64,000 nucleotides of DNA from Burkholderia cepacia GG4. Its GTDB lineage: Bacteria > Pseudomonadota > Gammaproteobacteria > Burkholderiales > Burkholderiaceae. Shown here one piece after another: positions 28,251 to 51,225 of the stretch (position 1 is its first letter; the number at the start of each line of letters is the position of its first letter). The DNA is taken from contig NC_018514.1 in assembly GCF_000292915.1 (NCBI RefSeq), forward strand, positions 1,488,001 through 1,552,000, written 5' to 3'. A program made the position numbers and the translations under genes. Below the pieces are notes generated by a model, which saw only the letters and a list, made by a program, of their open reading frames with translations, did no database searches and was not told the origin of the DNA.

Positions 28251-29261
28251 TCAGGGGTCGAGTGCACCGCCCGACCACCCGGCCGACGGCCGCGACCCGG
28301 TCAGCTTCAGCGCGACGTCGCCCTGCGCGACCAGCCGCTCGCGATTGCGCGTGACGATCCGTCCGGCCTGCGGCGCGACCAGTACATGCTCGCTGCCGGG
28401 CACGCCCGGATGCGCGACGATCCGCGCGATGCGCTCGCCCGCCGCGACCGACGCGCCGAGTTCGCGTTCGTACACGAGCACGCCCGACACCGGCGCGAGC
28501 ACCGTCTCCATGTGCGCGATCGGCACGGCGTCGCCGCCCCATTCGGGCGCGCCGGGCGGCTCCGCGATCACGCCGCGGCCGCGCAGGAACGCGAGTATGC
28601 CGTCGGCGTCGCGCTCGGCCAGCGCGTCGGACACGTCGGATTGACCGCGCAGCTCGACGGTCGCGACGAGCCGCTCGTGCAGGCGGCCGGTGCGCGCCCA
28701 GTGCGCGGCGATCGCGCCTTCGAATGCGCCGTCGTCGTCCTCGTCCCACAGGATCACGACGTCGGCGCCGAGCGCCGCGGCAAGATCGCGGCCGGCCGGC
28801 CACAGGTCGCGATGCAAGTAGAGATAGGGCAGCGCGTCGGAATCGGTATGGAGGTCGAGCACGAGGTCTGCATCGCGCGCGGCGTCGAACAGCGTGCGCT
28901 GCCACGCGGCGAACGTCGTCGCGGGCCGGCGCGTCGCCGCCGATTCGTGGAAATGCCGGTTGAAGTTGCGGTGCGTCGCGTCGTGAAAGCGGCCGAGCAG
29001 CCGCCCCTGCCGGAACTGCGCGAGCCCGAGCGGGTTCGCCTGCGGTACGACCGTCACCGTGCCGCGCAGCACGCCGCGATCGTGTGCCGCGCAGAGTTGC
29101 GGCAGCAACCGGTGCAGCACGAGCATGCCGGCGATCTCGTCCGCATGCACGCCGGCCTGCAGGTGCACGCGCGGCCCATCGCCACCCGACAGCCGCCACG
29201 CGCGGATCGCGAGCGGCTGCCCACCGTCGCCAGGCACCTGCCATGTCAGCGTTTCGATCAT
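28251..29261 (-). CDS. Succinylglutamate desuccinylase/aspartoacylase (AstE/AspA) family deacylase
   Basis: 336 residues. Zinc-binding and catalytic parts are visible: H-x-x-E in LQAGVHADEIAGM, the second metal His in LVLDLHTDSDALPY, and the arginine/asparagine region ATHRNFNRHFHE. A C-terminal beta-rich domain (AHMETVLAPVSGVLVYERELGASV) resembles a biotinyl-like cap seen in AstE-type proteins. Family members remove acyl groups from N-acyl amino acids. It is the last gene of the leftward ABC/aminotransferase operon, so the operon probably imports an N-acyl basic amino acid and frees the amine. The ATG at 29261 has AGGAGGACG upstream. Confidence 0.85.
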   Translation of the reverse strand: MIETLTWQVPGDGGQPLAIRAWRLSGGDGPRVHLQAGVHADEIAGMLVLHRLLPQLCAAHDRGVLRGTVTVVPQANPLGLAQFRQGRLLGRFHDATHRNFNRHFHESAATRRPATTFAAWQRTLFDAARDADLVLDLHTDSDALPYLYLHRDLWPAGRDLAAALGADVVILWDEDDDGAFEGAIAAHWARTGRLHERLVATVELRGQSDVSDALAERDADGILAFLRGRGVIAEPPGAPEWGGDAVPIAHMETVLAPVSGVLVYERELGASVAAGERIARIVAHPGVPGSEHVLVAPQAGRIVTRNRERLVAQGDVALKLTGSRPSAGWSGGALDP

Positions 29262-29292
29262 CGTCCGTCCTCCTGTTGCGGCGGCCCGAGCA

Positions 29293-30486
29293 TCACGACG
29301 CCGCGCGCGCATCCGCGCCGAGGCCGGCGACGAATGCCGCGATGCGCTCGCACGCGTCGGCCAGCTTCGCATCGTCGACGACGAAGCCGAAGCGCACGAA
29401 GCCCGACGCGGTATCGCCGAACGCGCTCGCGTCGAGCAGCGCGACCTGCTTCGCGCGGAACAACCCCCACGTGAATGCATGCGCATCCAGCCCCGTGCCG
29501 CGCACATCGACCATCATGAACATCCCGGCCTCCGGCAGCAGGCAGCGCAGCCCCGGCACGTCGCGCAGCCGCGCGTAGGCCAGGTCGCGGCGGCGCCGGT
29601 ACAGCTCGCGCATGTCCGCGACGATCGCAGCCTTGTTGTCGAGCGCGGCAATGGCCGCCTGCTGGATAAAACCCGGCAGCCCGTACAGCATGCACAGCGC
29701 GAGCCGCTCCGCATGCCCAATCAGCTCGGTCGGGCCGATCGCCCAGCCGACCCGCCAGCCCGGCATCGCATGCGATTTCGACAGGCTGCCGATCGTCACC
29801 GTGCGCTCGGCCATCCCCGGCAGCGACGCGATGCTGACCGTGTCGCGCTCGAACGTCAGTTCCGCATAGACCTCGTCCGATACGACCCACAGGTCGCGTT
29901 CGCAGGCGAGCCGCGCGATCCGTTCGAGATCGGCGCGCGGCATCACGACGCCGGTCGGATTGCACGGCGTCGCGAAGAAGATGGCCTTCGTGCGCGGCGT
30001 CACGGCCGCCTCGAGCGCGTCGAAGTCGAGATGAAAACCGCGCGCCGCATCGACCGGCACCGGCACGAGCGTCGCGCCAGAGGCCCGCACGCTCGCTTCG
30101 TACGTCAGGTACATCGGCTCCGGCACGATCACCTCGTCGCCGGCCTCGCACAGGCACATCGCCATCGCGAACAGCGCGTTCTGCGCACCGGCCGTCACGA
30201 TCACGTGCTCGGCGTCGACCGCCTGGCCGGACGCCTTCGCATGCTCGCGCGCGATCGCCGCGCGCAGCTCGGCGCGGCCGCGCACCTCGCTGTAGTGCGT
30301 ATCGCCGCCGCGCAGCGCCGTCACCGCGCGCTCGACGATCACGTCGGGCGTCGCGAAATCCGGATCGCCGACGCTCAGGATGATCGCCGGCTCGCCTGCC
30401 GCGACCGCGCGCTGCGCCGCGTAATGAATGTCCCATGCGGTCGTGCGCTTGCCCTGCAGGCGATCGACCAGCTTCGAATAGTTCAT
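29293..30486 (-). CDS. Class I/II aminotransferase resembling arginine:pyruvate transaminase AruH
   Basis: 397 residues, fold type I. The PLP lysine is in GSLSKSHAMPGWRVGW; other family parts are LSVGDPDFATPDVIV, ATPCNPTGVVMP and VSDEVYAEL. From memory of AruH, the AWDIHYAA N-terminus, SKSHAMPGWRVGW and LCMLYGLPGFIQ stretches are close matches, so transfer of the alpha-amino group of a basic amino acid to pyruvate is the best guess. An AruI-like decarboxylase is encoded at 34692-36293. The gene lies 52 bp after the permease and 31 bp before the deacylase gene. The ATG has GAGGGAGAACGC upstream. Confidence 0.85.
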   Translation of the reverse strand: MNYSKLVDRLQGKRTTAWDIHYAAQRAVAAGEPAIILSVGDPDFATPDVIVERAVTALRGGDTHYSEVRGRAELRAAIAREHAKASGQAVDAEHVIVTAGAQNALFAMAMCLCEAGDEVIVPEPMYLTYEASVRASGATLVPVPVDAARGFHLDFDALEAAVTPRTKAIFFATPCNPTGVVMPRADLERIARLACERDLWVVSDEVYAELTFERDTVSIASLPGMAERTVTIGSLSKSHAMPGWRVGWAIGPTELIGHAERLALCMLYGLPGFIQQAAIAALDNKAAIVADMRELYRRRRDLAYARLRDVPGLRCLLPEAGMFMMVDVRGTGLDAHAFTWGLFRAKQVALLDASAFGDTASGFVRFGFVVDDAKLADACERIAAFVAGLGADARAAS

Positions 30487-30538
30487 GCGTTCTCCCTCGC
30501 ACGGCGCCCGCCCGGCCGCCGCGCCGTCAGTGGTTCGT

Positions 30539-31234
30539 TCAACGCGGCATGCGCACCGGCACACGCCGCTCGAGCCGGCCGAACGCGCGCTCGATCACGA
30601 ACGCGAGCACGACGTAGATTACCGCGATCGCCAGCAGCGGCTCGTAGGTCCGCAGCGTCTGCGCGCGGATGTAGTTCGCGGCACCGAGCACGTCCATCAC
30701 CGCGACCGTCGATGCGAGCGCGGTCGATTTCAGCAGCATCACGGTCTCGCCCGCGAGCGTCGGCAGCAGGATCTGGATCGCGCGCGGCAGCCACACGCGC
30801 CGCGCGATCATCGACGGGCGCATCCCCATCGCGCGTGCGGCCTCGATCTCACCCTTCGGCACGCCGCGCAGGCCCGCGCGCAGCACTTCGCCGACATACG
30901 CACCGACGCTGATCACCAGCGCGAACGCGACATACCAGAATCCGTCGCGCAGGAACGGCCACAGCACGCTGTCGCGCAAGGCGGGCCAGCCGGCGAACAG
31001 CGAGCCGACGCCATAGTAGATCAGGTAGATCTGCACCAGCAGCGGCGTGCCGCGGATCACTTCGGTGAAGGCCTTGCTGACGCGCGCGACGACCGGATTG
31101 CCCGACAGCCGCGCGAACGCGACGGCGATCGCGAGCCCGAAGCCGAGCACGGCCGAGATGACGAGCAGCTTGACGGTGGTCAGCACGCCGAGCAGCAGCA
31201 GCGATCCGTAGGAAGACAGTACGCTCAGATCCAT
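30539..31234 (-). CDS. Amino acid ABC transporter permease (HisM/OccM-like)
   Basis: 231 residues with five membrane segments and the HisMQ signature EVIRGTPLLVQIYLIYYGV. The EAA loop is AARAMGMRPSMIARRVWLPRAIQILLPTLAGE. It pairs with the second permease of this operon (31284-32000) to form a heterodimeric channel, as in histidine and octopine importers. The start at 31234 (MDLSVLSSYGSLLLLG) fits the family. Confidence 0.93.
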   Translation of the reverse strand: MDLSVLSSYGSLLLLGVLTTVKLLVISAVLGFGLAIAVAFARLSGNPVVARVSKAFTEVIRGTPLLVQIYLIYYGVGSLFAGWPALRDSVLWPFLRDGFWYVAFALVISVGAYVGEVLRAGLRGVPKGEIEAARAMGMRPSMIARRVWLPRAIQILLPTLAGETVMLLKSTALASTVAVMDVLGAANYIRAQTLRTYEPLLAIAVIYVVLAFVIERAFGRLERRVPVRMPR

Positions 31235-31283
31235 GACGTGGCTCCGGTTCGCTCGAGAAATGCGTGGACAGGCACGACGCGGC

Positions 31284-32000
31284 TCACGATGCCGGCATCC
31301 AGCGGCCGAAGCGCCGCTCGATCTCGCGGAACAGCATGCCCGACAGCGACGTGATCGCAAAGTACACGGCCGCGACCATCAGGTAGTAGTGCATGTACTC
31401 GCGCGTCGAACCGGCCGCCTGCTTCGCCGTGTAGAGCAGCTCGCTGTAGCCGACCACGCTGATCAGCGCGCTGTCCTTCACGAGGATCAGCCACAGGTTC
31501 GTGAAGCCGGCCAATGCATACGGTGCCATCGCAGGCAGCGTCACGCGGCGGAACACGAGCGTCGGCGACGCGCCGAACGCACGCGCGGCCTCGATCTGCC
31601 CGTACGGAATCGCGAGGATCGCACCGCGGATGATCTCGGCCGCATAGGCGCCCTGCACGATGCCGAGCACGATCACCGCCGCCGCGAAGCCGTTGACCGC
31701 GACCGGCCCGACGCCGATCGCCGTCATCAGCAGGTTGATCGCATCGGTGCCCGCGTAATAGAGCAGCAGGATCAGCAGCAGCTCAGGCACCGCGCGGCAC
31801 AGCGTCGTGTAGCCCTGCGCGAGCCGTTCGAGCACGCGCACGCCGGACAGCTTCGCGGCAGCGCCCAGCAGCCCGAGCACGATGCCGACGACGAACGCGC
31901 CGAGCGAAATCTCGAGCGTCACGCCCGCGCCCTGCAGCAGCGCGACGCCCCAGCCGTCCGGGTCCATGCCCAGGTAGCTCACCCATCCCCAACCGTCCAT
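31284..32000 (-). CDS. Amino acid ABC transporter permease (HisQ/OccQ-like)
   Basis: 238 residues, five membrane segments. The signature region CRAVPELLLILLLYYAGTDAI differs from the partner in the RxxPELL pattern typical of HisQ/OccQ subunits. The EAA loop is AARAFGASPTLVFRRVTLPAMAPYALAGF. The ATG at 32000 has GAGGAGGCGGC upstream; an internal ATG 11 codons later is an alternative. It lies 40 bp after the binding-protein gene. Confidence 0.93.
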   Translation of the reverse strand: MDGWGWVSYLGMDPDGWGVALLQGAGVTLEISLGAFVVGIVLGLLGAAAKLSGVRVLERLAQGYTTLCRAVPELLLILLLYYAGTDAINLLMTAIGVGPVAVNGFAAAVIVLGIVQGAYAAEIIRGAILAIPYGQIEAARAFGASPTLVFRRVTLPAMAPYALAGFTNLWLILVKDSALISVVGYSELLYTAKQAAGSTREYMHYYLMVAAVYFAITSLSGMLFREIERRFGRWMPAS

Positions 32001-32040: not shown

Positions 32041-32838
32041 TCAGTGCGGCCAGAGGTCGATCGGGAAATACTTCTTCGCGATCTGCGCGTACTTGCCCGA
32101 TGCGTGCAGTTGTTCCAGCGCCTGGTCCATCTGCTGCTTCAGCGGCGCATCGGCCTTGCGCATCCCCGCGCCGACGCCGTAGCCGAAGATCGCCGGGTCC
32201 ATCTTCACGCTGCCGGGGCCCTTCAGCTCGAACGCGGAGCCGTCCTTCGACTTCAGGAAATCGAGGATGCCGAGCTGGTCGAGATACATCGTGTCGATAC
32301 GGCCCGCGACGAGGTCGGCGTTGCAGTCGTCCTGCGTGTTGTACAGGCGCACCGTCGCGCTCTTGCCGTACGCCATCTTGATGAACTCGGCATTTGCGGT
32401 GGAGCCCTGTACGCCGATCACCTTGCCCTTGAGGCCGTCCGGCGTCAGCGCGAGCTTCTGGTTCTTCGCACCGACGAAGGTGCCCGGCGTCTCGTAGTAC
32501 GGCCGCGAAAACGCGATTACCTTCTGGCGCTCCGGCGTGATCGACATCGAGTTGAAGATCACGTCGATCTTGTCGCTGAGCAGCGCCGGGATGATGCCGT
32601 CCCACGCGACTTCCTTGATCTCGCATTTCGCCTTCATCTGCTCGCACAGCGCGCGGATCAGGTCGGCCTCGAAGCCGCTCCACTGCCCGGTCGGGCTCTT
32701 CATCAGGAACGGCGGATACGGCTCGGCGGCGACGCCGAAGCGCAGCACGCCCGACGACGCGTGCGCGGAACCGAGCGGCGCAAGCGCCGCGAGAACGAGA
32801 CTCAACAGGCACAGCAGACTGCGTACGACGCGCTTCAT
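32041..32838 (-). CDS. Periplasmic basic-amino-acid-type binding protein (HisJ/OccT-like)
   Basis: 265 residues. Signal peptide 1-27 (MKRVVRSLLCLLSLVLAALAPLGSAHA). The mature protein has a type-3 fold with GVLRFGVAAEPYPPFLMKSPTGQWSGFEADLIRALCEQM, NSMSITPERQKVIAFSRPYYETPGTF, VIGVQGSTANAEFIK and a CysCys-bearing QDDCNADLVAGRIDTMYLDQ stretch seen in LAO/opine binders. It delivers substrate to the two permeases downstream. The ATG has AAGGAGTCCGACC upstream. Confidence 0.9.
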   Translation of the reverse strand: MKRVVRSLLCLLSLVLAALAPLGSAHASSGVLRFGVAAEPYPPFLMKSPTGQWSGFEADLIRALCEQMKAKCEIKEVAWDGIIPALLSDKIDVIFNSMSITPERQKVIAFSRPYYETPGTFVGAKNQKLALTPDGLKGKVIGVQGSTANAEFIKMAYGKSATVRLYNTQDDCNADLVAGRIDTMYLDQLGILDFLKSKDGSAFELKGPGSVKMDPAIFGYGVGAGMRKADAPLKQQMDQALEQLHASGKYAQIAKKYFPIDLWPH

Positions 32839-32908
32839 GGTCGGACTCCTTGCAGGAAAGATAGGGATCGGTGCGGCCGGCATCGATCGGGCCGGCCGCG
32901 CCCGCGGT

Positions 32909-33715
32909 TCAGTGGCGTTGCCGGTGCGCGTTGACGAACTGGCGGCAGCGTTCGCTCTGCGGCGCATCGAAGATCTCGCCCGGCGTGCCGCTCTCCTCGA
33001 CGCGTCCCTGGTGCAGGAACAGCACCTTGTTCGACACGTCGCGCGCGAACGCCATCTCGTGCGTGACGAGGATCATCGTGCGGCCTTCGCACGCGAGATC
33101 GCGGATCACCTTCAGCACTTCGCCGACGCGTTCGGGATCGAGCGCGGAGGTCGGCTCGTCGAACAGCATCACTTTCGGTCGCATCGCCAGCGCGCGCGCA
33201 ATGGCGACGCGCTGCTGCTGGCCGCCGGACAGGAACACGGGATAGACATTGCGCTTGTCGGCGAGGCCGACGCGCTCGAGCAGCTGCTCGGCGCGCGCGA
33301 TCGCTTCGGCGCGCGGTTCGCGCAGCACGTGCACGGGCATCTCGATCACGTTCTCGAGCACCGTGCGATGCGCCCACAGATTGAAGCTCTGGAACACCAT
33401 GCCGAGCCGCGTGCGGATGCGTTCGACCTGGCGCGGATCGGTCGGCACGGTGCGACCCTTGCGGTCGAGCTTCAGCCCGATCTCTTCGCCGTCGACGACG
33501 ATGCGCCCGCGGGTCGGCGTCTCCAGCAGGTTGATGCAGCGAAGCAGCGTGCTCTTGCCCGAGCCGCTCGCGCCGATCAGCGAGATCACTTCGCCTTCGC
33601 GCGCGCTCAGCGACACGCCCTTCAACACCTCCAGCTCGCCGAACCGCTTGTGCAGGTCGGTCACCTGCACGCGTTCCTCGACGGCCGTCTTCACGCTCTC
33701 CACCCGCGCCAACAT
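32909..33715 (-). CDS. Amino acid ABC transporter ATP-binding protein (HisP/OccP type)
   Basis: 268 residues with Walker A GASGSGKST, the HisP-type insertion (GLKLDRKGRTVPTDPRQVERIRTRLGMVFQSFNLWAHRTVLENV), signature [16 protein letters not shown], Walker [15 protein letters not shown] and THEMAFA. The insertion with its basic loop is typical of HisP/OccP rather than GlnQ proteins. It is the first gene of the leftward operon ending in the deacylase, and its promoter region carries the shared TTGAA-N6-TTCAA dyad 100 bp upstream. Confidence 0.94.
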   Translation of the reverse strand: MLARVESVKTAVEERVQVTDLHKRFGELEVLKGVSLSAREGEVISLIGASGSGKSTLLRCINLLETPTRGRIVVDGEEIGLKLDRKGRTVPTDPRQVERIRTRLGMVFQSFNLWAHRTVLENVIEMPVHVLREPRAEAIARAEQLLERVGLADKRNVYPVFLSGGQQQRVAIARALAMRPKVMLFDEPTSALDPERVGEVLKVIRDLACEGRTMILVTHEMAFARDVSNKVLFLHQGRVEESGTPGEIFDAPQSERCRQFVNAHRQRH

Positions 33716-33814: not shown

Positions 33815-33830
33815 TTGAACAGTGGTTCAA
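33815..33830. promoter_or_regulatory. TTGAA-N6-TTCAA dyad, site 1 (tetR/ABC divergent promoter)
   Basis: TTGAACAGTGGTTCAA lies within a larger perfect dyad, CTGTTGAAC-AGTG-GTTCAACAG (33812-33833), in the 238-bp gap between the HisP-type ATPase (leftward) and the TetR gene (rightward). More half-sites follow: TTCAA at 33836 and TTGAA at 33893. The same spaced dyad recurs at 41948, 48948 and 49017. It is the likely operator of the adjacent TetR protein. Confidence 0.75.
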
Positions 33831-33953: not shown

Positions 33954-34610
33954 GTGAAAAAGACTCCTGGCAGCGCACCGGTTCCGACCCGCAGCCGCGG
34001 CATCCGAGAAACGCCCGCCGTGCGGCAGCAATCGATCATCGACGCGACGATGCGCTGCATCGCGCGCTACAGCTATTCGGAAACCACGATCGACCGCATC
34101 TGCGCGGAAGCGAAGGTGTCGCGCGGGCTGATCAACCATCACTTCCAGTCGAAAGACGAACTGATGGCGCAGACCTACAAGCGGCTCGCGGCCGACCTGC
34201 TCGACGTGTCGCGTGCGGCCGCCGCGAACGCGACGGGCCCCGAGGACAAGCTCGACGCGATCATCAAGGTGTGTTTCGCCGCGCCGGTGTTCGCGCCGAA
34301 GAACGTGAAGGTATGGCTCGGCTTCTGGAGCGTCGCGCACAGCGACCCGGTGATCCGCAAGGCGCACAAGGAGCTGTACAGCGGCTACCGGCAGGCGTTG
34401 AAGAAGCTGTTCGACCAGATCGCCGAAGTGCGCGGCGGCACCGTCGACAGCGAGCTCGCGGCGCTGACGCTGACGGCCGTGATCGACGGCTTCTGGCTCG
34501 AACTCGCGCGCGACCCGACGTCGTTCACCGCGGAAGATGCACTGACGAGCTGCCTGCGCGTCGTCGATACGTTCCTGCCGCCGTCGAAGACGGCGCGCAA
34601 ACGCGCCTGA
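33954..34610 (+). CDS. TetR-family regulator, BetI-type
   Basis: 218 residues. The helix-turn-helix is TTIDRICAEAKVSRGLINHHFQSKDELMAQT at about residues 40-72. The ligand domain is BetI-type (DKLDAIIKVCFAAPVFAPKNVKVWLGFWSVAHSDPVIRKAHKELY). BetI represses choline/betaine genes, and its relatives often respond to quaternary amines or related CoA pathways. It is divergent from the basic-amino-acid ABC operon, with a strong dyad between them that recurs at three other catabolic promoters. I infer that it is the repressor of that set. Confidence 0.9.
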   Translation: MKKTPGSAPVPTRSRGIRETPAVRQQSIIDATMRCIARYSYSETTIDRICAEAKVSRGLINHHFQSKDELMAQTYKRLAADLLDVSRAAAANATGPEDKLDAIIKVCFAAPVFAPKNVKVWLGFWSVAHSDPVIRKAHKELYSGYRQALKKLFDQIAEVRGGTVDSELAALTLTAVIDGFWLELARDPTSFTAEDALTSCLRVVDTFLPPSKTARKRA

Positions 34611-44063: not shown

Positions 44064-46193
44064 ATGACCTCCTCTCCCGCAGTCAGGGATCGCCGCGCGG
44101 CCGCCGCGGCCAATTTGCGCCGGCTGCTCGAGCCAGCCAGCATCGCGTTCGTCGGCGGACGCGGCATCGCGGGCGCCGTGCAGCGCTGTCGCGATTACGG
44201 CTATGCCGGCGACATCTGGCTCGTCAATCCGAACCATGCAGAGATCGACGGCGTGCGCTGCCATGCGAGCGTTGCCGACCTGCCCGCCGCGCCGGACGCC
44301 GTGTTCGTCGCGGTGCCTGCGCGCCAGGCGATCGACGTCGTGCGCGCGCTCGCCGAACGCGGCGCCGGCGGTGCGATCGTGTATGCGTCGGGCTTCTCCG
44401 AAACCGGCGCCGACGGCGCCGTGCTGCAGCAGGCGCTGGTCGACGCGGCCGGCGACATGGCCGTGCTCGGACCGAATTGCTACGGGCTGATCAACGGGCT
44501 GAACGGCTGCGCGCTGTGGCCGGTCGCGCACGGCGCGCCGCGCGTCGAATCGGGCGTCGCGGTGATCACGCAGAGCGGCAACCTCGCGTACAACCTGTCG
44601 ATGAGCGCACGCTCGGTGCCATTCGCGTACCTGGCCAGCGTCGGCAACCAGGCGTCGGTCGACATCGCGCGGCTCGTCGATGCGTTCGTCGACGAGCCGC
44701 GCATCCGCGCGATCGGCGTGCATCTCGAAGGGCTGAAGGACGTGCGCGCGTTCAGCGAGGCCGCCGCCCGCGCACTCGCGCACGGCGTGCCGATCGTCGC
44801 GCTGAAGAGCGGCACGTCGACGCTCGGCGCGCAGCTCGCGATGAGCCACACGAGCTCGCTCGCGGGTTCGGACGCGTTGTACGACGCGCTGTTCCGGCGG
44901 CTCGGCGTGATCCGCGTGAAGGACCCGGTCGGCCTCGTCGAGACGTTGAAGCTGCTCGCGATCGCCGGCGTTCCCGAGCGCCGCACGCTCGCCGCGCTGG
45001 CGACATCCGGCGGCGACGCAGGGCTCGTCGCGGATCTCGGCGAAGCGCGCGGCATCGAATTCCCGCCAGTCCGCGACGCGGGCCGCGACGCGCTCGGCAA
45101 CGTGCTGCCCGCCTACGCGACGATCGCGAACCCGCTCGATTTCACGACGACGCCGTGGGGCGACCCCGGCAAGATGCGCGCGTGCTGCGACGCGCTCCTG
45201 GCCGACCGCCCGGGCGCGGCTGCGATGATCCTCGACTATCCGCAGGAAGCGACCGGCGAGCGGCCGCTGTGCGACATCGCGGCGAACGCATTCGCGGCGT
45301 CCGCACGCCAGCACGGCGTGGTCGGCGCGGTGATCTCGGTGTTCCCGGACCTGACGCCGCCCGACCACGCGGCGCGCATGGCCGCGGCCGGCATCGCGCC
45401 GCTGCAGGGGCTCGCCGACGGGCTCGACGCGATCGGCGCGGCGATGACCTACGGCGACACGCGGCGCCGCGTGCTCGACGCCGATGCGCTGAACGCGCTG
45501 CCGGTGCTGCGGGCCGGCAACGGCGGCGACGGCACCGCGACGCTGCACGACGAATGGGCGAGCAAGCGGATGCTGGCCGCGCACGGGCTCGACGTGCCGC
45601 CGGCCGAATGCGTCGCGCCCGCCGATGCGCCAGCCGCCGCACAGCGGCTCGGCTTTCCGGTCTGCGTGAAGGTCGTCAGCGAGCGCCTGCCGCACAAGAC
45701 CGAGGCCGGCGCGGTCGCGCTGAAGCTCGCGTCGCCCGAGGCCGTCGCCGCGGCGGTCGGGCGGATGACCGAACAGGTCGCCCGTTACGCGCCCGACGTG
45801 CGCGTCGAGCGCATCCTCGTCGAGAAAATGGCCGACGCGCCGCTGCTCGAACTGATCGTCGGCGTGAAGCGCGAGCCGAATTTCGGCCTCGCGCTGGTGC
45901 TCGGCTCCGGTGGCGTGCTGGTCGAGCTGATCCGCGACACCGCGACGCTGCTGCTGCCGGTGCGCGAAAGCGACGTGCGCGACGCGCTGCTCGGGTTGAA
46001 GCTCGGCCCGCTGCTGACCGGCTATCGCGGGCGGCCAAAGGCCGATCTCGACGCGGTGGTCGCGAACGTGATGGCGATCGCGCGCTTCGCGCAGGCACAT
46101 GCCGATACGCTCGTCGAGCTCGACGTCAATCCGCTGCTCGTGATGGAACGCGGCGCGGTGGCCGTCGATGCGCTGGTGAGGCTCGACGCGTGA
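44064..46193 (+). CDS. ADP-forming-type acyl-CoA ligase (fused CoA-binding and ATP-grasp domains)
   Basis: 709 residues. CoA-binding Rossmann domain from about 15 (RRLLEPASIAFVGGRGIAGAVQRCRDYGYAGDIWLVNPNHAEIDG). The succinyl-CoA-ligase-like part has the phosphohistidine motif SHTSSLAGSDALYDAL. The C-terminal ATP-grasp has LPHKTEAGAVALKL and a final GYRGRPKADLDAVV. This family makes an acyl-CoA from acid, CoA and ATP, forming ADP. It lies 50 bp after the acyl-CoA dehydrogenase gene. A stem-loop follows its stop. Confidence 0.9.
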   Translation: MTSSPAVRDRRAAAAANLRRLLEPASIAFVGGRGIAGAVQRCRDYGYAGDIWLVNPNHAEIDGVRCHASVADLPAAPDAVFVAVPARQAIDVVRALAERGAGGAIVYASGFSETGADGAVLQQALVDAAGDMAVLGPNCYGLINGLNGCALWPVAHGAPRVESGVAVITQSGNLAYNLSMSARSVPFAYLASVGNQASVDIARLVDAFVDEPRIRAIGVHLEGLKDVRAFSEAAARALAHGVPIVALKSGTSTLGAQLAMSHTSSLAGSDALYDALFRRLGVIRVKDPVGLVETLKLLAIAGVPERRTLAALATSGGDAGLVADLGEARGIEFPPVRDAGRDALGNVLPAYATIANPLDFTTTPWGDPGKMRACCDALLADRPGAAAMILDYPQEATGERPLCDIAANAFAASARQHGVVGAVISVFPDLTPPDHAARMAAAGIAPLQGLADGLDAIGAAMTYGDTRRRVLDADALNALPVLRAGNGGDGTATLHDEWASKRMLAAHGLDVPPAECVAPADAPAAAQRLGFPVCVKVVSERLPHKTEAGAVALKLASPEAVAAAVGRMTEQVARYAPDVRVERILVEKMADAPLLELIVGVKREPNFGLALVLGSGGVLVELIRDTATLLLPVRESDVRDALLGLKLGPLLTGYRGRPKADLDAVVANVMAIARFAQAHADTLVELDVNPLLVMERGAVAVDALVRLDA

Positions 46194-46274: not shown

Positions 46275-47666
46275 TCAGATCACCTTGCCGGGATTGAGCA
46301 GCCCGAGCGGATCGAACGCGTGCTTCAGGCGGCGCATAGCAGCAATCTCGGCGTCGCTGCGCGAGCAGCCGAGCCAGTCGCGCTTGTAGCGGCCGATCCC
46401 GTGCTCGGCCGACACCGAGCCGCCCGCGTCGCGCACGAGCGGATACAGCACCGCGTCGACGTCGTGCGCGCTCTCGCCCGCCGCGTACGGTGCCGACACG
46501 CACACGTGCAGGTTGCTGTCGCCGAGGTGGCCGAAGAAGAACACGTGCGCACCGGGCCAGCGGGCCTTCAGCGCGCGATCGCACGCGTCGATGAAGGCCG
46601 CCGTCTCGCGCGGCGGAATCCCGACGTCGAAATTGACGAGGCCAGGCAGATTGTCGATCGCAAGCCCTTCTCGCACCGTCCAGAATGCCTGTGCGTCGGC
46701 CGCGGTCTGCGCGAGCGCAGCATCGTCGATCAATTCGCGCTCGAGCCAGTCGGCCAGCACGGCTTCGAACCGTTCGGCCGTCGGTGCGGCCTCGCCGCTC
46801 GCGCATTCGATCAGCACCTTGACGCCGTCGTCCGCCGGCAGCGGCGCGCGCATGCCGGGCGTGTGCTCGCACACGTAGCCGTAGAACGCCGGCCACATCG
46901 CCTCGAAGCTCAGCAAGTCCGCACACGCGGCGCGCGCCTCGCGCAGCAGCGTGAGCGCTGCGGCCGTATCGCGCACCGCGCACAGCGCGGTCGACGGTGC
47001 GGCGAGCCGAGGATGCAGCCGCAGCACGACCCGCGTGACGACGCCGAGCGTTCCTTCGCTGCCGACGAAGATCTGCCGCAGGTCGTAGCCCGCGTTGTTC
47101 TTCAGCATCTTGTTCAGCGAACTCAGCACGGTGCCGTCGGCCAGCACGACCTCGAGGCCCAGCACCTGCTCGCGCGTCGTGCCGTAGCGGATCACACGAT
47201 TGCCGCCCGCATTGGTCGCGACGTTGCCGCCGATCTGGCACGACCCGCGCGCACCGAGATCGATGCCGAGCGCGAAGCCCGCTTCGTCTACCGCTTCCTG
47301 AAGGTCCTGCAGGGTGGTGCCGGCCCACGCGGTGACGGTGGCCGCATCCGCGTCGATCTCGGCGACACCCTTCATGCGTTCGAGCGACAGCACGACGTCC
47401 TGCGCACCGGGCTCGGCGCCGGCCGCGAGCCCGGTCATCCCGCCCTGCGGCACGACGGTCTGCCGGTACGCGCAGCAGATCGCGAGCGCGCGGCTCACGT
47501 CGTCGACGCTGCGTGGGCGCAGCAGCGCGCGCGGCCGCACGCCGGCTGCTTCGCCGTAGTTGGTGAAATGGCGCGCGCCGATCGCGTCGCCGGTGCTCAC
47601 GCAATCGGCGCCGAGCGCGTCGCGCAGCGCGGCGACGACGTCGCCGTTCGAGGATGGATCGGACAT
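46275..47666 (-). CDS. FAD-linked 2-hydroxyacid oxidase (GlcD/DLD family)
   Basis: 463 residues. FAD_binding_4 domain: VVPQGGMTGLAAGAEP, GARGSCQIGGNVATNAGGNRVIRYGTTREQVLGLEVVLADG, NNAGYDLRQIFVGSEGTLGVVTRVVLRL. C-terminal FAD-oxidase domain ending SVSAEHGIGRYKRDWL...LKHAFDPLGLLNPGKV. Such enzymes oxidise D-lactate, glycolate, D-2-hydroxyglutarate and related acids. It follows the porin gene by 43 bp on the same strand. Its substrate is likely a 2-hydroxyacid by-product of the regulon. The ATG at 47666 (MSDPSSNG) has only a weak ribosome-binding site. Confidence 0.88.
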   Translation of the reverse strand: MSDPSSNGDVVAALRDALGADCVSTGDAIGARHFTNYGEAAGVRPRALLRPRSVDDVSRALAICCAYRQTVVPQGGMTGLAAGAEPGAQDVVLSLERMKGVAEIDADAATVTAWAGTTLQDLQEAVDEAGFALGIDLGARGSCQIGGNVATNAGGNRVIRYGTTREQVLGLEVVLADGTVLSSLNKMLKNNAGYDLRQIFVGSEGTLGVVTRVVLRLHPRLAAPSTALCAVRDTAAALTLLREARAACADLLSFEAMWPAFYGYVCEHTPGMRAPLPADDGVKVLIECASGEAAPTAERFEAVLADWLERELIDDAALAQTAADAQAFWTVREGLAIDNLPGLVNFDVGIPPRETAAFIDACDRALKARWPGAHVFFFGHLGDSNLHVCVSAPYAAGESAHDVDAVLYPLVRDAGGSVSAEHGIGRYKRDWLGCSRSDAEIAAMRRLKHAFDPLGLLNPGKVI

Positions 47667-47674
47667 GATCGACG

Positions 47675-47694
47675 GGGCCGGCCGTATCCGGCCC
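47675..47694 (-). terminator. Stem-loop between porin and oxidase genes
   Basis: GGGCCGG (47675-47681) pairs with CCGGCCC (47688-47694) around six bases, in the 43-bp gap after the porin stop. It could attenuate transcription so that the oxidase is made at a lower level than the abundant porin. There is no T-run, so full termination is uncertain. Confidence 0.5.
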
Positions 47695-47709
47695 GGGAAC
47701 GAGAAAGGA

Positions 47710-48840
47710 TCAGAAATTATGCCGCATGCCGATGCGCGCGGCGGCCTGGGTGCGGCTCGTCGACGGCGCGAAGCTGTAGCCAATCACCGCGTCGACGCCG
47801 TTCGACGCGCGCATCCAGTCGACCGCCGCATACACGTCGGTGCGCTTCGACAGCGCGTAATGCGCGCCGAGCGCGACTTCGTGCCAGTGATGGCCTTCGA
47901 ACGTCGTGTACTGGTAGCCCGCGACGAGCGACAGCGGCACGGTCGCCTGGTACACGCCGCCCGCCTCGTACACGCGCATCGTCGACGATTGCCCGTAACC
48001 CTTGAACGTCGTGTTGCTGAAGTCCGCGTTGAGCGTCAGCTTGCCGAGCGTGTACGAGGCGCCGATCCCGAAGATCGATTGCGAGTCGATCGCGAACGGC
48101 GTCGAGTCGTGCAGGTCAGTGACGGCGCCCGTCGCCGGATCGACCGTCGCGACCGTCTGCCCGAGCATCGTCCTCACGCCCATCTGCGCATACGGATCGA
48201 GCGCCGCGAGCCCGCGCGGTGCATTGAGCCGCGTGTAGTTGCCGCCCGCCGAGAAATCGCCGTGCGTATAGCTTGCGCCCACGCTCCATGCGCTGCCGTC
48301 GTGGAAGCTGCCCGCGTCGTTGCTGAACGAATACATGCCGCCGACCACGAGCCCGTGGAAGCTGTTGCTGACGAATTTCACCGCGTTCTGCAGCCGGTCG
48401 CCGCTCTGGCGGTCGAAATCGCCGAGGTGCACGCCGTAGCCGCTGCCGAACGCGCTGACGTTGTACGCGGCCGTGAAGTCGAACGCGAAGTCGTACTGGT
48501 TGCCGAACGTCAGCGTGCCCCAGTCGTTGCCGAGCCCGACGTAGGCCTGCCGCCCGAACATCGCGCCGCCCTGGTTCAGCCGACCGGTGCCGAGCCGGAA
48601 ACCGCTCTCGAGCTTGAACACCGCCTTGTTGCCGCCGCCGAGATCCTCGGTGCCCATCAGGCCGACGCGGTTGCCGTACGACACGCCGTCGTCGAACAGG
48701 TACGCATGTGCACCGCCCGTGTTGTTCACGTAGGTGATGCCGCCGTCGATGATCCCGTACAGCGTGACGCTGCTCTGGGCATGGGCGTAGCCGTGGACCA
48801 TCACCGACATCATGCCGGCCAGCAGGAAGCGCTTCTTCAT
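47710..48840 (-). CDS. Gram-negative trimeric porin (Burkholderia OmpC/Opc-like)
   Basis: 376 residues. Signal peptide 1-21 (MKKRFLLAGMMSVMVHGYAHA) cleaved before QSSVTLYGIIDGGITYVNN, the hallmark of beta-proteobacterial porins. Alternating beta-strands follow with SRVG-like NRVGLMGTEDLGGGNKAVFKLESGF, and a terminal Phe (GMRHNF), the usual outer-membrane assembly signal. It should form a 16-strand channel. Two copies of the TTGAA-N6-TTCAA dyad lie upstream, so it is probably the regulon's outer-membrane entry. The ATG has GGAGACACCGCAA upstream. Confidence 0.92.
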   Translation of the reverse strand: MKKRFLLAGMMSVMVHGYAHAQSSVTLYGIIDGGITYVNNTGGAHAYLFDDGVSYGNRVGLMGTEDLGGGNKAVFKLESGFRLGTGRLNQGGAMFGRQAYVGLGNDWGTLTFGNQYDFAFDFTAAYNVSAFGSGYGVHLGDFDRQSGDRLQNAVKFVSNSFHGLVVGGMYSFSNDAGSFHDGSAWSVGASYTHGDFSAGGNYTRLNAPRGLAALDPYAQMGVRTMLGQTVATVDPATGAVTDLHDSTPFAIDSQSIFGIGASYTLGKLTLNADFSNTTFKGYGQSSTMRVYEAGGVYQATVPLSLVAGYQYTTFEGHHWHEVALGAHYALSKRTDVYAAVDWMRASNGVDAVIGYSFAPSTSRTQAAARIGMRHNF

Positions 48841-48947
48841 TTGCGGTGTCTCCGGTTGCCGCGCGCGGCGGCTCGATTTTTCGTTGTGCGTGAACGCCGC
48901 CCGCCTGCTTCGCTTCGGCACCGCGGCGCTGGCGAGTATAGGTTCAG

Positions 48948-48963
48948 TTGAATGAATGTTCAA
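48948..48963. promoter_or_regulatory. TTGAA-N6-TTCAA dyad, site 3 (porin promoter side)
   Basis: TTGAATGAATGTTCAA is an exact match to the shared dyad, 108-123 bp upstream of the porin ATG and in the 263-bp gap shared with the thioesterase gene. It is followed by TTGAC at 48964, which could overlap a promoter element. Confidence 0.7.
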
Positions 48964-49016
48964 TTGACGGAGAGGTCGATCCGTACCGGTGTTTACACCC
49001 ATCGGCGATTTCATTA

Positions 49017-49032
49017 TTGAAAAAACGTTCAA
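49017..49032. promoter_or_regulatory. TTGAA-N6-TTCAA dyad, site 4 (thioesterase promoter side)
   Basis: TTGAAAAAACGTTCAA is an exact match to the shared dyad, 72-87 bp upstream of the thioesterase ATG and 69 bp from site 3. Two sites in one gap suggest that each direction has its own operator, or that the regulator loops between them. Confidence 0.7.
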
Positions 49033-49103
49033 CCCGTCATAACATCGACCGGCAGCCCCCGCGGACGACGTGCGGGCCCGTTCCGAACCCCGGAGTGCAC
49101 TGG

Positions 49104-49709
49104 ATGACGACCCATCTCAGCCCCGCCGCCGAGCCGCGCCTGCGCTCGGCCTACGAAGGACAGAAGTCGCGCCCGTACGATCCCGGCGCGCCGATCGCGA
49201 CGCCGCTCGCACTGCATCGCTGCACCGTGCAGCCCGAGTGGGTCGACTACAACGGCCACATGAGCGAATCGTGCTACCTGCTCGTGTTCGGCGACAGCAG
49301 CGACGCGTTCTTCCGCTACTTCGGCATCGACGACGGCTATCGCGAAGCCGGCTGCTCGATCTATTCCGCGGAAACGCACATCCGCCACCTGCGCGAAGCG
49401 ATGCTCGGCGAGCCGCTGCGGCTCACGGTCAGGCTGCTCGACGTGGACGACCGCAGGTTGCACGTATTCCATTCGATGCATCACGCGACGACCGGCGCGC
49501 AGCTCGCGACCGGCGAACAGCTGCTGACCCACGTGGACATGCGCGCGAAGCGCTCGACGCCGTTCCCCGATGCAATCCGCCGGCATCTGGACGCGATTCA
49601 CGCCGAACATGCGCGCGCGCCACGCGAGCCACACGCGGGCCGCGCGATCGCGATCCGCCGCGCTGCCCCTGCTTCTTCCGCTTCTTCCGCTTCTTCCGCT
49701 TCCCGCTGA
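49104..49709 (+). CDS. Hotdog-fold thioesterase resembling carnitine-pathway (CdhB-type) thioesterases
   Basis: 201 residues. The core (PEWVDYNGHMSESCYLLVFGDSSDAFFRYFGIDDGYREAGCSIYSAETHIRHLREAMLGEPLRLTVRLLDVDDRRLHVFHSMHH) closely matches, from memory, the thioesterase fused to or next to L-carnitine dehydrogenase. The D-x-N-GHM motif holds the catalytic Asp. It would release a hydroxy- or oxoacyl-CoA such as a betaine-like acid. No carnitine dehydrogenase is encoded nearby. The C-terminus is an ASS-repeat tail. The ATG at 49104 has CGGAG upstream. The aldehyde dehydrogenase gene follows in the same direction. Confidence 0.8.
   Translation: MTTHLSPAAEPRLRSAYEGQKSRPYDPGAPIATPLALHRCTVQPEWVDYNGHMSESCYLLVFGDSSDAFFRYFGIDDGYREAGCSIYSAETHIRHLREAMLGEPLRLTVRLLDVDDRRLHVFHSMHHATTGAQLATGEQLLTHVDMRAKRSTPFPDAIRRHLDAIHAEHARAPREPHAGRAIAIRRAAPASSASSASSASR
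49671..49697 (+). repeat. Three tandem copies of GCTTCTTCC at the thioesterase C-terminus
   Basis: Three 9-bp units GCTTCTTCC (49671-49697) are followed by a partial fourth. They encode ASS ASS ASS at the end of the thioesterase. Being in frame, changes in number would only lengthen the tail. Confidence 0.85.
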
Positions 49710-49737
49710 CCACGCCGAACCACGACGGAGCCTTCCC

Positions 49738-51225
49738 ATGCAGACGCACGACGACTGGCGCAGCCGCGCCGGCCAGCTCGACATCGATTCCCGCGCATTC
49801 GTCGACGGCGCGTTCCGCGACGCGCACGACGGTGCCACCTTCACATGCACGAGCCCGATCGACGGCCGCGTGCTCGCGCAGGTCGCACATTGCCGTCAGG
49901 CCGACGCCGACCTCGCGGTCGCGGCCGCGCGGCGCGCTTTCGAACGCGGCACGTGGCGCGACGCGTCGCCGCGCGAACGCAAGCGCGTGCTGCTGCGCTG
50001 GGCCGCGCTGATCCGCGAACACGCGGACGATCTCGCGCTGCTCGAAACGCTCGACACCGGCAAGCCGATCGGCGATACGACCACGATCGACATTCCGTCC
50101 ACCGCGTACTGCGCCGAGTGGTTCGCCGAGGCGATCGACAAGACCGGTGGCGAAGTCGCGCCAGCGGACGCGCATCTCGTCGGGCTCGTCACACGCGAGC
50201 CGATCGGCGTGGTCGCGGCGGTCGTTCCGTGGAATTTCCCCGCGATGATCGCGATGTGGAAATGCGCGCCCGCGCTCGCGGCCGGCAACAGCGTCGTACT
50301 GAAGCCGTCCGAGAAATCGCCGCTCAGTGCATTGCGGCTCGCGGCGCTGGCCGCGCAGGCCGGGCTGCCGGCCGGCGTGCTGAACGTGCTGCCGGGCTTC
50401 GGCGACGCGGGCGAAGCACTCGCGCGGCATCCGGACGTCGACTGCATCGCGTTTACCGGCTCGACCGCGGTCGGCCACCAGGTCGCGCGCTGCGCGGCCG
50501 ATTCGAACCTGAAGCGCGTGTGGCTCGAGCTCGGCGGCAAGTCGCCGCAGATCGTGCTGCCCGACTGCCCCGATCTCGAACGCGCGGCGCGCACCGTCGC
50601 GCATGCGGTGTTCTACAACACCGGGCAGATGTGCACGGCCGGCTCGCGGCTGCTCGTCCATCGCGCGATTCGTGACGCACTCGTCGCGCGCGTGCTCGCG
50701 ATCGCGCCCGAGTACGCACCCAGCGATCCGCTGTCGCCCGACACCCGGATGGGCAGCCTGATCGATGCCGCGCAGGTCGAGCGCGTGCTCGGCTACGTCG
50801 ACGCCGGCCGCGACGAAGCGACGCTGATCACGGGCGGCAAGCGCGCGCGCACTGCCAGCGGCGGCCAGTACGTCGAGCCGACCGTGTTCGACTGTCCGCG
50901 TGCCGATGCGCGGATCGTGCGCGAGGAGATTTTCGGGCCCGTGCTCGCGGTCACGGCATTCGACGATCTGGATACGGCCGTCGCGCTCGCGAACGACACG
51001 CGCTACGGGCTCGCGGCCTCGGTGTGGACGGCAAACCTGACGACCGCGCATGAAACCGCGCGCCGGCTGCGGGCCGGTACGGTGTGGGTGAACGGTTACG
51101 AGGAAACCGACGACATGAACTTCCCGTTCGGCGGCTTCAAGGAGTCGGGCAACGGGCGCGACAACTCGCTGCATGCGCTGGAGAAATACACGGAGTTGAA
51201 GTCGACGGTGATTCGGTTGCGGTGA
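49738..51225 (+). CDS. NAD(P)-dependent aldehyde dehydrogenase (PuuC/betaine-aldehyde type)
   Basis: 495 residues. Catalytic Cys in FYNTGQMCTAGSRL, general-base Glu in VWLELGGKSPQ, NAD site AFTGSTAVGHQ, and PWNFPAMIAMWKCAPALAAGNSVVLKPSE. C-terminal FGGFKESGNGRDNSLHALEKYTELKSTVI is typical of PuuC and betaine-aldehyde dehydrogenases. It oxidises an omega-amino or quaternary aldehyde to the acid. This is the step needed after an AruI-type decarboxylase. It follows the thioesterase gene by 28 bp; CGGAG lies upstream of the ATG. Confidence 0.93.
   Translation: MQTHDDWRSRAGQLDIDSRAFVDGAFRDAHDGATFTCTSPIDGRVLAQVAHCRQADADLAVAAARRAFERGTWRDASPRERKRVLLRWAALIREHADDLALLETLDTGKPIGDTTTIDIPSTAYCAEWFAEAIDKTGGEVAPADAHLVGLVTREPIGVVAAVVPWNFPAMIAMWKCAPALAAGNSVVLKPSEKSPLSALRLAALAAQAGLPAGVLNVLPGFGDAGEALARHPDVDCIAFTGSTAVGHQVARCAADSNLKRVWLELGGKSPQIVLPDCPDLERAARTVAHAVFYNTGQMCTAGSRLLVHRAIRDALVARVLAIAPEYAPSDPLSPDTRMGSLIDAAQVERVLGYVDAGRDEATLITGGKRARTASGGQYVEPTVFDCPRADARIVREEIFGPVLAVTAFDDLDTAVALANDTRYGLAASVWTANLTTAHETARRLRAGTVWVNGYEETDDMNFPFGGFKESGNGRDNSLHALEKYTELKSTVIRLR

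Follow-up and report, generated by a model that had tools for sequence, protein, structure and literature searches.

The arginine transaminase pathway of Pseudomonas aeruginosa, for which the key paper is reportedly that of Yang and Lu from 2007, employs AruH and AruI, which we take to be PA4976 and PA4977. Genes for an AruH-like and an AruI-like protein also occur together in a cluster at positions 28251 to 51225 of the DNA stretch analyzed here, a 64,000-nucleotide window of the Burkholderia cepacia GG4 genome (contig NC_018514.1, positions 1,488,001 to 1,552,000). We propose, with a probability of roughly 0.55, that this cluster is a catabolic regulon for an alpha-amino acid with a terminal trimethylammonium group on its side chain, the likeliest being N6-trimethyllysine, a compound released from methylated proteins. 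The proposal draws on the gene set, a conserved core, a shared palindrome, the clade and residues of AruI, and the neighbors of its orthologs. What would be new is the joining of AruH-AruI shortening to a betaine-type coenzyme A (CoA) branch.

Passages of PMC4051601 and PMC4412052 place PA4975 and genes for an acyl-CoA synthetase, an acyl-CoA dehydrogenase, and an enoyl-CoA hydratase (PA4978 to PA4980) in the arginine transaminase locus of P. aeruginosa. A CoA module beside AruH and AruI is therefore neither peculiar to the window nor new in itself, and the contrast that the original prediction, made from the letters of this stretch, drew between its CoA genes and the known arginine pathway is not supported. 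The quinone reductase, transaminase, decarboxylase, acyl-CoA synthetase, dehydrogenase, and hydratase families of that locus are all found in the window. In the loci L143, L145, and L156, labeled Pseudomonas-like from their gene set, the reductase, AruH, AruI, and CoA families form one run together with an aldehyde dehydrogenase, whereas the window spreads the six families over three units, with AruH joined to a His-type importer, the reductase and AruI to a Pot-type importer, and the CoA genes divergent. The window moreover adds the HisP and Pot importers, a CdhB-like thioesterase, a porin, a deacylase, a BetI-like regulator, and a palindrome to what is present in the P. aeruginosa locus. The likeness to P. 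aeruginosa PAO1 is one of families taken from papers, and sequence identities given below refer to the Pseudomonas-like loci.

Carnitine and gamma-butyrobetaine systems (CdhA-CdhB-CdhC; CntA-CntB) resemble the window in its CdhB-like thioesterase and in the position of AruH-AruI orthologs near CntA-CntB and of AruI clade members near carnitine dehydrogenase and BKACE genes, but the carnitine dehydrogenase and the BKACE-family gene of this genome lie in a separate carnitine cluster. In gut bacteria, DavB-DavA convert trimethyllysine to delta-valerobetaine, as described in passages of PMC11773067. Delta-valerobetaine is also the intermediate proposed for the window, but DavB-DavA are a monooxygenase and an amidohydrolase, whereas in the window the betaine would be formed by a transaminase, a decarboxylase, and an aldehyde dehydrogenase and then degraded in a further branch. 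The bbu cluster of Emergencia timonensis, as presented in passages of PMC8364193, likewise activates a trimethylammonio acid (gamma-butyrobetaine) with CoA and also includes a thioesterase and an enzyme of the acyl-CoA dehydrogenase family; it differs in using CoA transferases instead of a nucleoside diphosphate (NDP)-forming ligase, in being anaerobic, and in comprising six genes without amino acid shortening. A literature search on trimethyllysine and delta-valerobetaine catabolism, which left subscription literature mostly uncovered, returned neither a transaminase/decarboxylase route nor a catabolic end for delta-valerobetaine in titles or abstract openings.

The cluster lies on one of the two contigs of the 6.47-Mb Burkholderia genome. 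Gene calls and family scans placed every enzyme class named in the original prediction where it had been located, with the correction that the acyl-CoA ligase is of the ADP/NDP-forming type; the earlier gene list was complete for the classes it named and had passed over the BetI-like TetR regulator, the Flavodoxin_2 reductase, MarC, and the GlcD-like oxidase. Strand and spacing suggest six transcription units, listed here with their genes.
33715 to 28251, minus strand: unit 1, HisP-J-Q-M-AruH-deacylase
28251 to 29271, minus strand: AstE/AspA-type metallo-deacylase (PF24827, 88 bits, cut-off 25); the open frame extends to 29507, and the start near 29271 was set from the length of relatives
29293 to 30564, minus strand: AruH-like pyridoxal phosphate aminotransferase (PF00155, 238 bits)
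30539 to 31360, minus strand: HisM-type permease (NF011651, 138 of 306 bits)
31284 to 32000, minus strand: HisQ-type permease (NF011714, 175 of 319 bits)
32041 to 32967, minus strand: HisJ/ArgT-type amino acid binding protein (TIGR01096, 217.5 of 256 bits)
32909 to 33715, minus strand: HisP-type ABC ATPase, first gene of its unit (NF007908, 352 of 466 bits)
33954 to 34610, plus strand: unit 2, BetI-like TetR regulator (PF13977, 86 bits)
41959 to 34692, minus strand: unit 3, PotA-D-B-C, Flavodoxin_2 reductase, MarC, AruI
34692 to 36293, minus strand: AruI-like thiamine diphosphate-dependent 2-oxo acid decarboxylase (NF005712, 731 bits, cut-off 500)
36348 to 36986, minus strand: MarC-family membrane protein (PF01914, 111 bits)
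about 37050 to 37775, minus strand: Flavodoxin_2 NAD(P)H:quinone reductase-like protein of the PA4975 kind (PF02525, 159 bits)
37820 to 38614, minus strand: PotC-type permease (family scan)
38634 to 39509, minus strand: PotB-type permease (family scan)
39535 to 40680, minus strand: PotD-type binding protein (PF13416)
40760 to 41959, minus strand: PotA-type ABC ATPase, first gene of its unit (TIGR01187, 352.5 of 355.6 bits)
42064 to 46193, plus strand: unit 4, crotonase, acyl-CoA dehydrogenase, NDP-forming ligase
42064 to 42852, plus strand: crotonase-family enoyl-CoA hydratase (PF00378, 151 bits)
42856 to 44013, plus strand: acyl-CoA dehydrogenase of a narrow subfamily (family scan and seven-genome comparison)
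44064 to 46193, plus strand: NDP-forming acyl-CoA synthetase (PF13549, PF13607)
46275 to 47783, minus strand: GlcD-like flavin adenine dinucleotide oxidase, unit 5 together with the porin (TIGR00387, 239 of 568 bits)
47710 to 49032, minus strand: porin, true start probably nearer 48900 (PF13609, 167 bits)
48948 to 49709, plus strand: CdhB-like 4HBT thioesterase that probably starts near 49080 and forms unit 6 with the next gene, divergent from unit 5 (PF13279, 112 bits)
49570 to 51225, plus strand: PuuC-like aldehyde dehydrogenase that probably starts near 49735 (PF00171, 555 bits; NF007352, 617 of 850 bits)

Of 200 genomes searched within the family, 23 had an AruI-like gene, and three of these genomes (G102, G187, G193) each carried two, one 93 to 95% and the other about 55% identical to that of the window. 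The 55% type had genes for Pot- and His-type importers and an aldehyde dehydrogenase as neighbors, joined by a ureohydrolase in 5 of the 10 stretches examined first. A tree of 57 AruIs (55 of them different) split at 99/96 into a side of 26 rows, which held all ureohydrolase-linked AruIs, and a side of 31 rows with the window type, the Crenobacter type, and others; with the Pseudomonas-like rows added, the window side was supported at 98/95 and the opposite side at 92/75. The sides are separated at five positions (window numbering). The arginine type has K239, E278, F285, an acidic residue 396 (25/26), and C501, and the window side has R239, a neutral residue 278, a residue other than F at 285, A, V, or G at 396, and a mostly aromatic residue 501; in the window AruI these are R239, P278, A285, A396, and W501. 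Residue 278 was acidic in all 29 arginine-type rows (E in 26/26, D in the 3 Pseudomonas-like rows) and neutral in all 28 window-type rows, and Cys501 was replaced by W, Y, or F in 27 of the latter. Alignment with acetohydroxyacid synthase (AHAS) I put position 278 within a two-residue insertion of the arginine loop LGARFD-DRAIG, which presumably binds substrate in AHAS. The window AruI thus lacks the acidic residue 278, a feature defined in this analysis and not an established criterion, and it stands in a clade separate from the Pseudomonas-like arginine-type AruIs, to which it is 44 to 45% identical. The AruH tree did not separate substrate types, and the best NCBIfam match of the window AruH was GntC, with 315 bits below the cut-off of 415.

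Neighbor counts rest on tblastn probes because the gene caller, which uses third-position GC content, failed on low-GC loci (it was unreliable in L061, L110, L111, and L114). With identity and coverage limits that we chose ourselves, the uniform probe covered 57 rows from 55 distinct loci; the pairs L031/L175 and L032/L176 each represent one locus entered twice, 28 window-type rows corresponding to 26 distinct loci, and the stretches of L107, L110, and L174 were shorter than the rest. As markers we counted ligase/dehydrogenase genes or CntA-, carnitine dehydrogenase-, BKACE-, or BBOX-like genes. CoA-module or trimethylammonium-catabolism genes were present near 26 of the 28 window-type rows, none of which had a ureohydrolase nearby, whereas the 26 arginine-type rows showed 10 ureohydrolases and none of these markers. 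Within the arginine type, the 13 stretches that were opened later account for three ureohydrolases and no marker. The window cluster itself contains no ureohydrolase, as had been predicted; this does not extend to the genome, where four ureohydrolase-family genes are located elsewhere.

In the four loci L045, L046, L160, and L161, of which L046 is from Crenobacter oryzisoli, a sigma-54 activator, CntA, and CntB are encoded in the vicinity of HisPJQM-AruH-AruI orthologs. In Crenobacter and in a Neisseriaceae bacterium, genes for an aldehyde dehydrogenase, CntA, and CntB are situated upstream of HisPJQM-AruH-AruI on the same strand, with the sigma-54 activator gene on the opposite strand between the CntA run and the AruH-AruI operon. 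A prediction was fixed before 399 genomes of the order were searched; besides the genome of the window, there were two matches, both new (G990 and G1171, loci L160 and L161), and in both the AruI carries the window signature and CntA and CntB are nearby. The linked CntA of Crenobacter scored 564 bits against the solved carnitine monooxygenase, compared with 680 bits for the ordinary CntA of the same genome, of which the second, Neisseriaceae genome holds a 97%-identical copy. All four linked CntAs (that of L045 read in L087, from the same genome) show the exchanges Y315A and F247Y and retain Y203, Y225, F258, N270, Y295, and F319; held against the full set of carnitine pocket residues, they deviate at Y315 only, which is Ala in 4/4. 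Y315 and F247 are present in all four ordinary CntAs (6y8j, L115, L116, L090), a count that excludes the distant Rieske protein of L117 (38%; F203, A247, V315). Passages of PMC7948474 assign the pi-cation contact between the solved CntA and the trimethylammonium group to Y203 and count Y315 among the hydrophobic/steric residues of the pocket; they also report that alanine mutants of the pocket have decreased or no activity and that longer-chain analogues are not accepted by the ordinary enzyme. Ala315 would be what a five-carbon acid needs, and the altered pocket is consistent with a chain length beyond that of gamma-butyrobetaine, for instance that of the delta-valerobetaine that would arise from N6-trimethyllysine. 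The CntA tree did not resolve and was given no weight, and the genome of the window yielded no CntA match at E values up to 1e-40.

The NDP-forming ligase of the window has 9y43, 8wzu, and 7cm9 as its nearest solved relatives; it aligns nearly end to end with the dimethylsulfoniopropionate lyase DddX (7cm9, 215 bits) and scores higher with 3-hydroxypropionate and 4-hydroxybutyrate CoA ligases (232 and 219 bits). With the model for CaiA crotonobetainyl-CoA dehydrogenase (NF002885), the dehydrogenase reached 204 of 540 bits. Its relatives in seven genomes were 70% (Pseudomonas-like), 58%, and about 55 to 56% identical (carnitine-type clusters), followed by proteins with at most 39% identity, and in these genomes the subfamily was found only within 8 kb of an AruI. 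The thioesterase matched the fused carnitine 3-dehydrogenase model NF005716 (cut-off 592) through the C-terminal thioesterase part alone (168 bits); it is 40 to 44% identical to the fused carnitine dehydrogenase domains and 37.5% to the thioesterase of the genome's own carnitine cluster, which is a small difference.

Near other members of the AruI clade we found carnitine 3-dehydrogenases (660 and 749 bits, cut-off 592) and GbdR-like regulators (292 to 302 of 480 bits), along with TmpA/BBOX-like dioxygenases (395 and 403 bits, cut-off 400) and BKACE-family proteins (228 to 247 of 382 bits). In L109 (genome G567), AruI and AruH are accompanied by a dehydrogenase (58%), a ligase (44%), a crotonase (30%), and a fusion of carnitine 3-dehydrogenase with a thioesterase that scored 660 bits; this locus also encodes a BKACE-family protein (247 of 382 bits), a TmpA/BBOX-like dioxygenase (395 of 400 bits), and a GbdR-like regulator. 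L106 (G559) holds AruI, a dehydrogenase of about 55 to 56% identity, the fused dehydrogenase-thioesterase with 749 bits, and a BKACE-family protein. The separate carnitine cluster of the B. cepacia genome (C2:240678-245360; L157 8678-13360) comprises a BKACE-family gene, an L-carnitine dehydrogenase (687 of 414 bits), a thioesterase, and a BBOX-like dioxygenase, the last of which remained below its cut-off (395 of 414.75 bits).

That the cluster forms one regulon, as the original prediction held, is supported by a conserved core and by an operator-like palindrome with the core TTGAA-N6-TTCAA, which sits at three divergent promoters of the cluster.
33815 to 33830: palindrome TTGAACAGTGGTTCAA within the inverted repeat CTGTTGAACAGTGGTTCAACAG, whose 8-bp arms are perfect; between the HisP gene and the TetR gene
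41948 to 41963: one-mismatch palindrome TTGAACGTTCATTTAA, PotA/crotonase divergent promoter
48948 to 48963: palindrome TTGAATGAATGTTCAA, porin/thioesterase divergent promoter
49017 to 49032: second palindrome TTGAAAAAACGTTCAA, porin/thioesterase divergent promoter
The four sites with at most one mismatch compare with 0.21 expected in the window, and none of 100 shuffles reached four. Genome-wide (6.47 Mb) there are five exact sites, three of them in the cluster, and none for the reversed control. The two exact copies outside the cluster are located at C2:587600-587615 (L177) and C1:1118013-1118028 (L178); read by eye, one falls at the beginning of a MerR-type gene that neighbors an efflux-type gene, and the other is internal to a porin gene. 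Among 20 Burkholderiaceae loci, 18 contain the exact palindrome (L044 and L047 do not), in the relatives checked within the gap between TetR and HisP (or AruH) and the gap between porin and thioesterase; L048 likewise has two exact sites. One-mismatch sites near the crotonase start recur in L043, L092, and L093, and three f157 loci have the exact palindrome near HisP or AruH. The cluster is thus probably one regulon, likely under its BetI-like TetR, which we presume to be a repressor; this protein reached 125.6 bits with the BetI model TIGR03384, below the equivalog cut-off of 201.3. Control by a riboswitch or other RNA was dropped, the Rfam scan of 22000-58000 having given a single match below threshold (ROSE_3, 23.6 of 43 bits).

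Among 22 relative loci fetched by name (15 Burkholderia, 5 Paraburkholderia, 2 Neisseriaceae), AruI is 84 to 97%, 72 to 76%, and 64 to 65% identical to that of the window, respectively; among full-length named AruIs, the closest shares 95% identity with it. The gene arrangement is conserved across Burkholderia and Paraburkholderia, which argues against a chance grouping. L043 has its His importer reduced to HisM fragments and lacks the Pot importer and the deacylase, L048 lacks the Pot importer, the deacylase, and MarC (kept in most relatives), and L042, from Paraburkholderia silviterrae, retains a PotC fragment of its Pot importer; all three keep AruH, AruI, the reductase, the crotonase, the dehydrogenase, the ligase, and the thioesterase. 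An aldehyde dehydrogenase lies near L042 and L043 and is absent from the L048 stretches. Besides L043 and L048, L045 and L046 also showed no deacylase, and the GlcD-like oxidase is present in L092 and missing from the L093 and L094 stretches. We therefore rejected the oxidase, the porin, the deacylase, and the Pot importer as core parts, each being among the genes that one or more relatives lack. In the full logical chain claimed in the original prediction, the deacylase and both importers are accessory parts, and the cluster proteins scanned do not amount to a complete beta-oxidation. EtfB is encoded in eight window-type rows and EtfA was identified in L034 (by eye) and L043, neither being present in the window; the EtfB genes of the relatives support a real acyl-CoA oxidation. 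In L034 (7528-9247) and likewise in some other relatives, EtfB-EtfA is inserted between the Flavodoxin_2 gene and MarC, which in the window (36987-37049) are about 60 bp apart with no such genes between them. In L031 (8823-10043) of Burkholderia lata, a TnpB-like open frame, read by eye, separates MarC from AruI.

From these gene families we infer the following route. The HisP-type importer would take up the amino acid, from which the deacylase may first strip an N-alpha-acyl group. AruH would convert N6-trimethyllysine to 2-oxo-6-trimethylammoniohexanoate, which, unlike the keto acid of lysine, should be unable to cyclize, AruI would decarboxylate it to 5-trimethylammoniopentanal, and the aldehyde dehydrogenase would oxidize this to delta-valerobetaine. 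Because the nitrogen of delta-valerobetaine cannot be removed by transamination or hydrolysis, the NDP-forming ligase would make the CoA ester, which the acyl-CoA dehydrogenase, presumably with a housekeeping electron-transferring flavoprotein, would oxidize to the 2-enoyl-CoA and the crotonase would hydrate to the 3-hydroxyacyl-CoA. The thioesterase most likely frees the 3-hydroxy acid, homocarnitine, and in the weakest part of the route the carnitine dehydrogenase/BKACE/thioesterase cluster of the genome could complete the breakdown. In relatives of the Crenobacter type, the altered-pocket CntA-CntB would replace the CoA branch and cut off trimethylamine directly. With slightly less confidence than for the substrate, and hence tentatively, we suggest an undescribed aerobic catabolism of N6-trimethyllysine via delta-valerobetaine with two interchangeable ends, a CoA module leading to homocarnitine in Burkholderiaceae or a Y315A/F247Y CntA-CntB in the Crenobacter type, the CoA genes beside aruHI in Pseudomonas being a cousin of the former. 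A C5 acid was preferred over gamma-butyrobetaine because shortening of trimethyllysine gives five carbons, although the BBOX-like gene in the genome's carnitine cluster was noted. On chemical grounds we also weighed routes for canavanine, S-methylmethionine, and methional (Dmd-type) and dropped them, the presumably roomier CntA pocket counting against a shorter acid; the permease of the Pseudomonas-like loci is closest to an S-methylmethionine permease (526 of 716 bits).

Several results weigh against the proposed trimethyllysine regulon. The window-clade loci L113 and L114 have no marker genes, neither the exact nor the one-mismatch palindrome was found in L046, L160, L161, or L106 (in the first three a sigma-54 activator gene adjoins the operon instead), and no aldehyde dehydrogenase lies near CntA in L160 and L161, extended stretches included. 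Neither a 3-hydroxyacyl-CoA dehydrogenase nor a thiolase was seen among the cluster proteins scanned, and no search was made for trimethylamine-using genes. As the relatives share descent, locus numbers overstate the evidence, and the CoA-type, CntA-type, and carnitine-dehydrogenase-type settings provide at most three independent hints. AspC and IlvB1 of Sinorhizobium meliloti, relatives of AruH and AruI, are promiscuous according to passages of PMC7268258. The CoA module of the P. aeruginosa locus may act on a guanidino acid or on some second substrate. Arginine could then be shortened by AruH and AruI, and ligase, dehydrogenase, and hydratase would take 4-guanidinobutyrate to 3-hydroxy-4-guanidinobutyryl-CoA, which resembles carnitine. 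This would agree with the role of P. aeruginosa AruH in the arginine transaminase pathway and the presence of PA4975 and PA4978 to PA4980 at its locus, and with the Pseudomonas-like loci L143, L145, and L156, which pair an acidic, arginine-type AruI and AruH with a ligase, a dehydrogenase (69 to 70% identical), and a hydratase without a ureohydrolase; their Flavodoxin_2 reductase is 58 to 59% identical. It would also suit the HisJ-like protein, a member of the ArgT/HisJ family whose nearest solved relative is the arginine-binding 3tql (171 bits). We nevertheless regard an arginine route as unlikely, since the ureohydrolases of the genome could hydrolyze guanidinobutyrate, three relatives hold a separate arginine-type AruI besides the window type, the window-type AruI lacks the acidic residue 278, the CntA of four related loci is ill-suited to a guanidino acid, and a literature search on 4-guanidinobutyryl-CoA returned no title on catabolism.

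A neutral residue 278 would also suit the neutral ureido group of a methylarginine route, in which mono- or dimethylarginine, or citrulline derived from it, passes through a substituted guanidino- or ureidobutyrate that an ordinary guanidinobutyrase cannot cut. DDAH/ADI-type genes (PF02274) occur near window-type AruIs in L160 (10870-11631), L114 (11112-11870), and L108 (3306-4073), directly downstream of AruI in L160, L114, L045, and L046 and about 5 kb off in L108, and in these five loci methylarginines may be a cargo of the importer. For this reason methylarginine stays a candidate, but an improbable one, a little more so than arginine: the window has no DDAH/ADI-type gene, the L045 and L046 copies, 41 to 42% identical to that of L160, read by eye have Ser in place of the Cys of its GGLTC stretch, distant hits (23 to 25%) also occur in L150, an AruH locus with a ureohydrolase, and the CntA neighbors call for a trimethylammonium group. 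To the same low degree we credit a trimethyllysine route in which the dehydrogenase itself eliminates trimethylamine, 2,3-dehydrogenation and loss of the acidic gamma-proton giving 2,4-pentadienoyl-CoA for hydration by the crotonase. Passages of PMC8364193 describe BbuA, an acyl-CoA dehydrogenase family member, as a lyase that releases trimethylamine from gamma-butyrobetainyl-CoA, the missing hydroxyacyl dehydrogenase and thiolase would be accounted for, and an acrylyl-CoA reductase gene (TIGR02823, 450 bits, cut-off 297) adjoins AruI in L106 (12143-13147), where it would fit acrylyl-CoA from beta-alanine betaine; EtfB in eight relatives, however, points to real oxidation, and in L106 and L109 the dehydrogenase subfamily sits with carnitine-dehydrogenase-type genes. 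A loose neighborhood, with importer, AruH-AruI, and a fatty-acid-type CoA operon each serving other substrates, would explain why parts were lost independently in relatives and would accord with passages of PMC4412052 in which PA4978 to PA4980 were once proposed as genes of a fatty acid signal system. It is very improbable in view of the shared palindrome, the core conserved in Burkholderiaceae, and the joint occurrence of the same enzymes in distant Pseudomonas-like genomes. Among the substrates listed in the original prediction, N6-trimethyllysine gained support from the altered-pocket CntA, the carnitine-dehydrogenase/BKACE/BBOX-like neighbors, and the loss of the acidic AruI residue, whereas homoarginine and N-acyl-arginine gained none.

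The amino acid binding protein of the His-type importer was compared with the lysine/arginine/ornithine binding protein (LAO), in which we take S70, S72, R77, and D161 to contact the alpha-amino acid part and D11, D30, and F52 to form the side-chain site. The HisJ-like protein, which remained below the LAO cut-off (TIGR01096) and has an altered D11/D30 site, keeps the former four and has A, E, and W at the latter three. The A/E/W pattern recurs in all 10 other aligned window-type loci (L048 with Thr for S72) and in two Pseudomonas-like loci, which hints, weakly, at a shared ligand class; to the contrary, the arginine-type locus L054 also has E30 and W52. Nearest solved relatives of the PotD-like protein are 9d57, 6dgv (a gamma-aminobutyrate sensor), and 4eq7, and the PotD-type system is a candidate importer of the omega-onio acid itself. 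The deacylase reached 34 of 402.7 bits with DoeB (TIGR02994), and the one genome hit of AstE (PF04952) was at another gene; the deacylase is an accessory part that may strip an N-alpha-acyl group from an imported conjugate.

PMC11773067 discusses delta-valerobetaine as a diet-dependent obesogen, and passages of this paper describe its bacterial production and its hydroxylation by a mammalian enzyme and name no bacterial degrading enzyme. If the proposed substrate is correct, the cluster would offer a new way of forming delta-valerobetaine as well as candidate genes for degrading it, a substrate-shifted class of carnitine monooxygenase would be predicted, AruI-like genes annotated as 2-ketoarginine decarboxylase may hold at least two specificities, and the CoA genes beside aruHI in Pseudomonas would acquire a testable role.

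The two halves of the window cluster form two separate loci in the Pseudomonas-like genomes L142, L144, and L146, where a second AruH (59 to 61% identical to that of the window) accompanies HisJ-HisQ-HisM, TetR, and an AstE-type deacylase. In L113 (11126-14295), genes for a homocysteine S-methyltransferase and an Oxidored_FMN/Pyr_redox_2 enzyme lie beside the window-clade AruI and may represent a methyl-group branch. Adjoining the regulon in the window (51677-57872) are genes for an esterase-like protein, an AnsP-like permease, aspartate ammonia-lyase, a LysR regulator, and asparaginase II, which probably constitute an aspartate/asparagine set unrelated to the finding.

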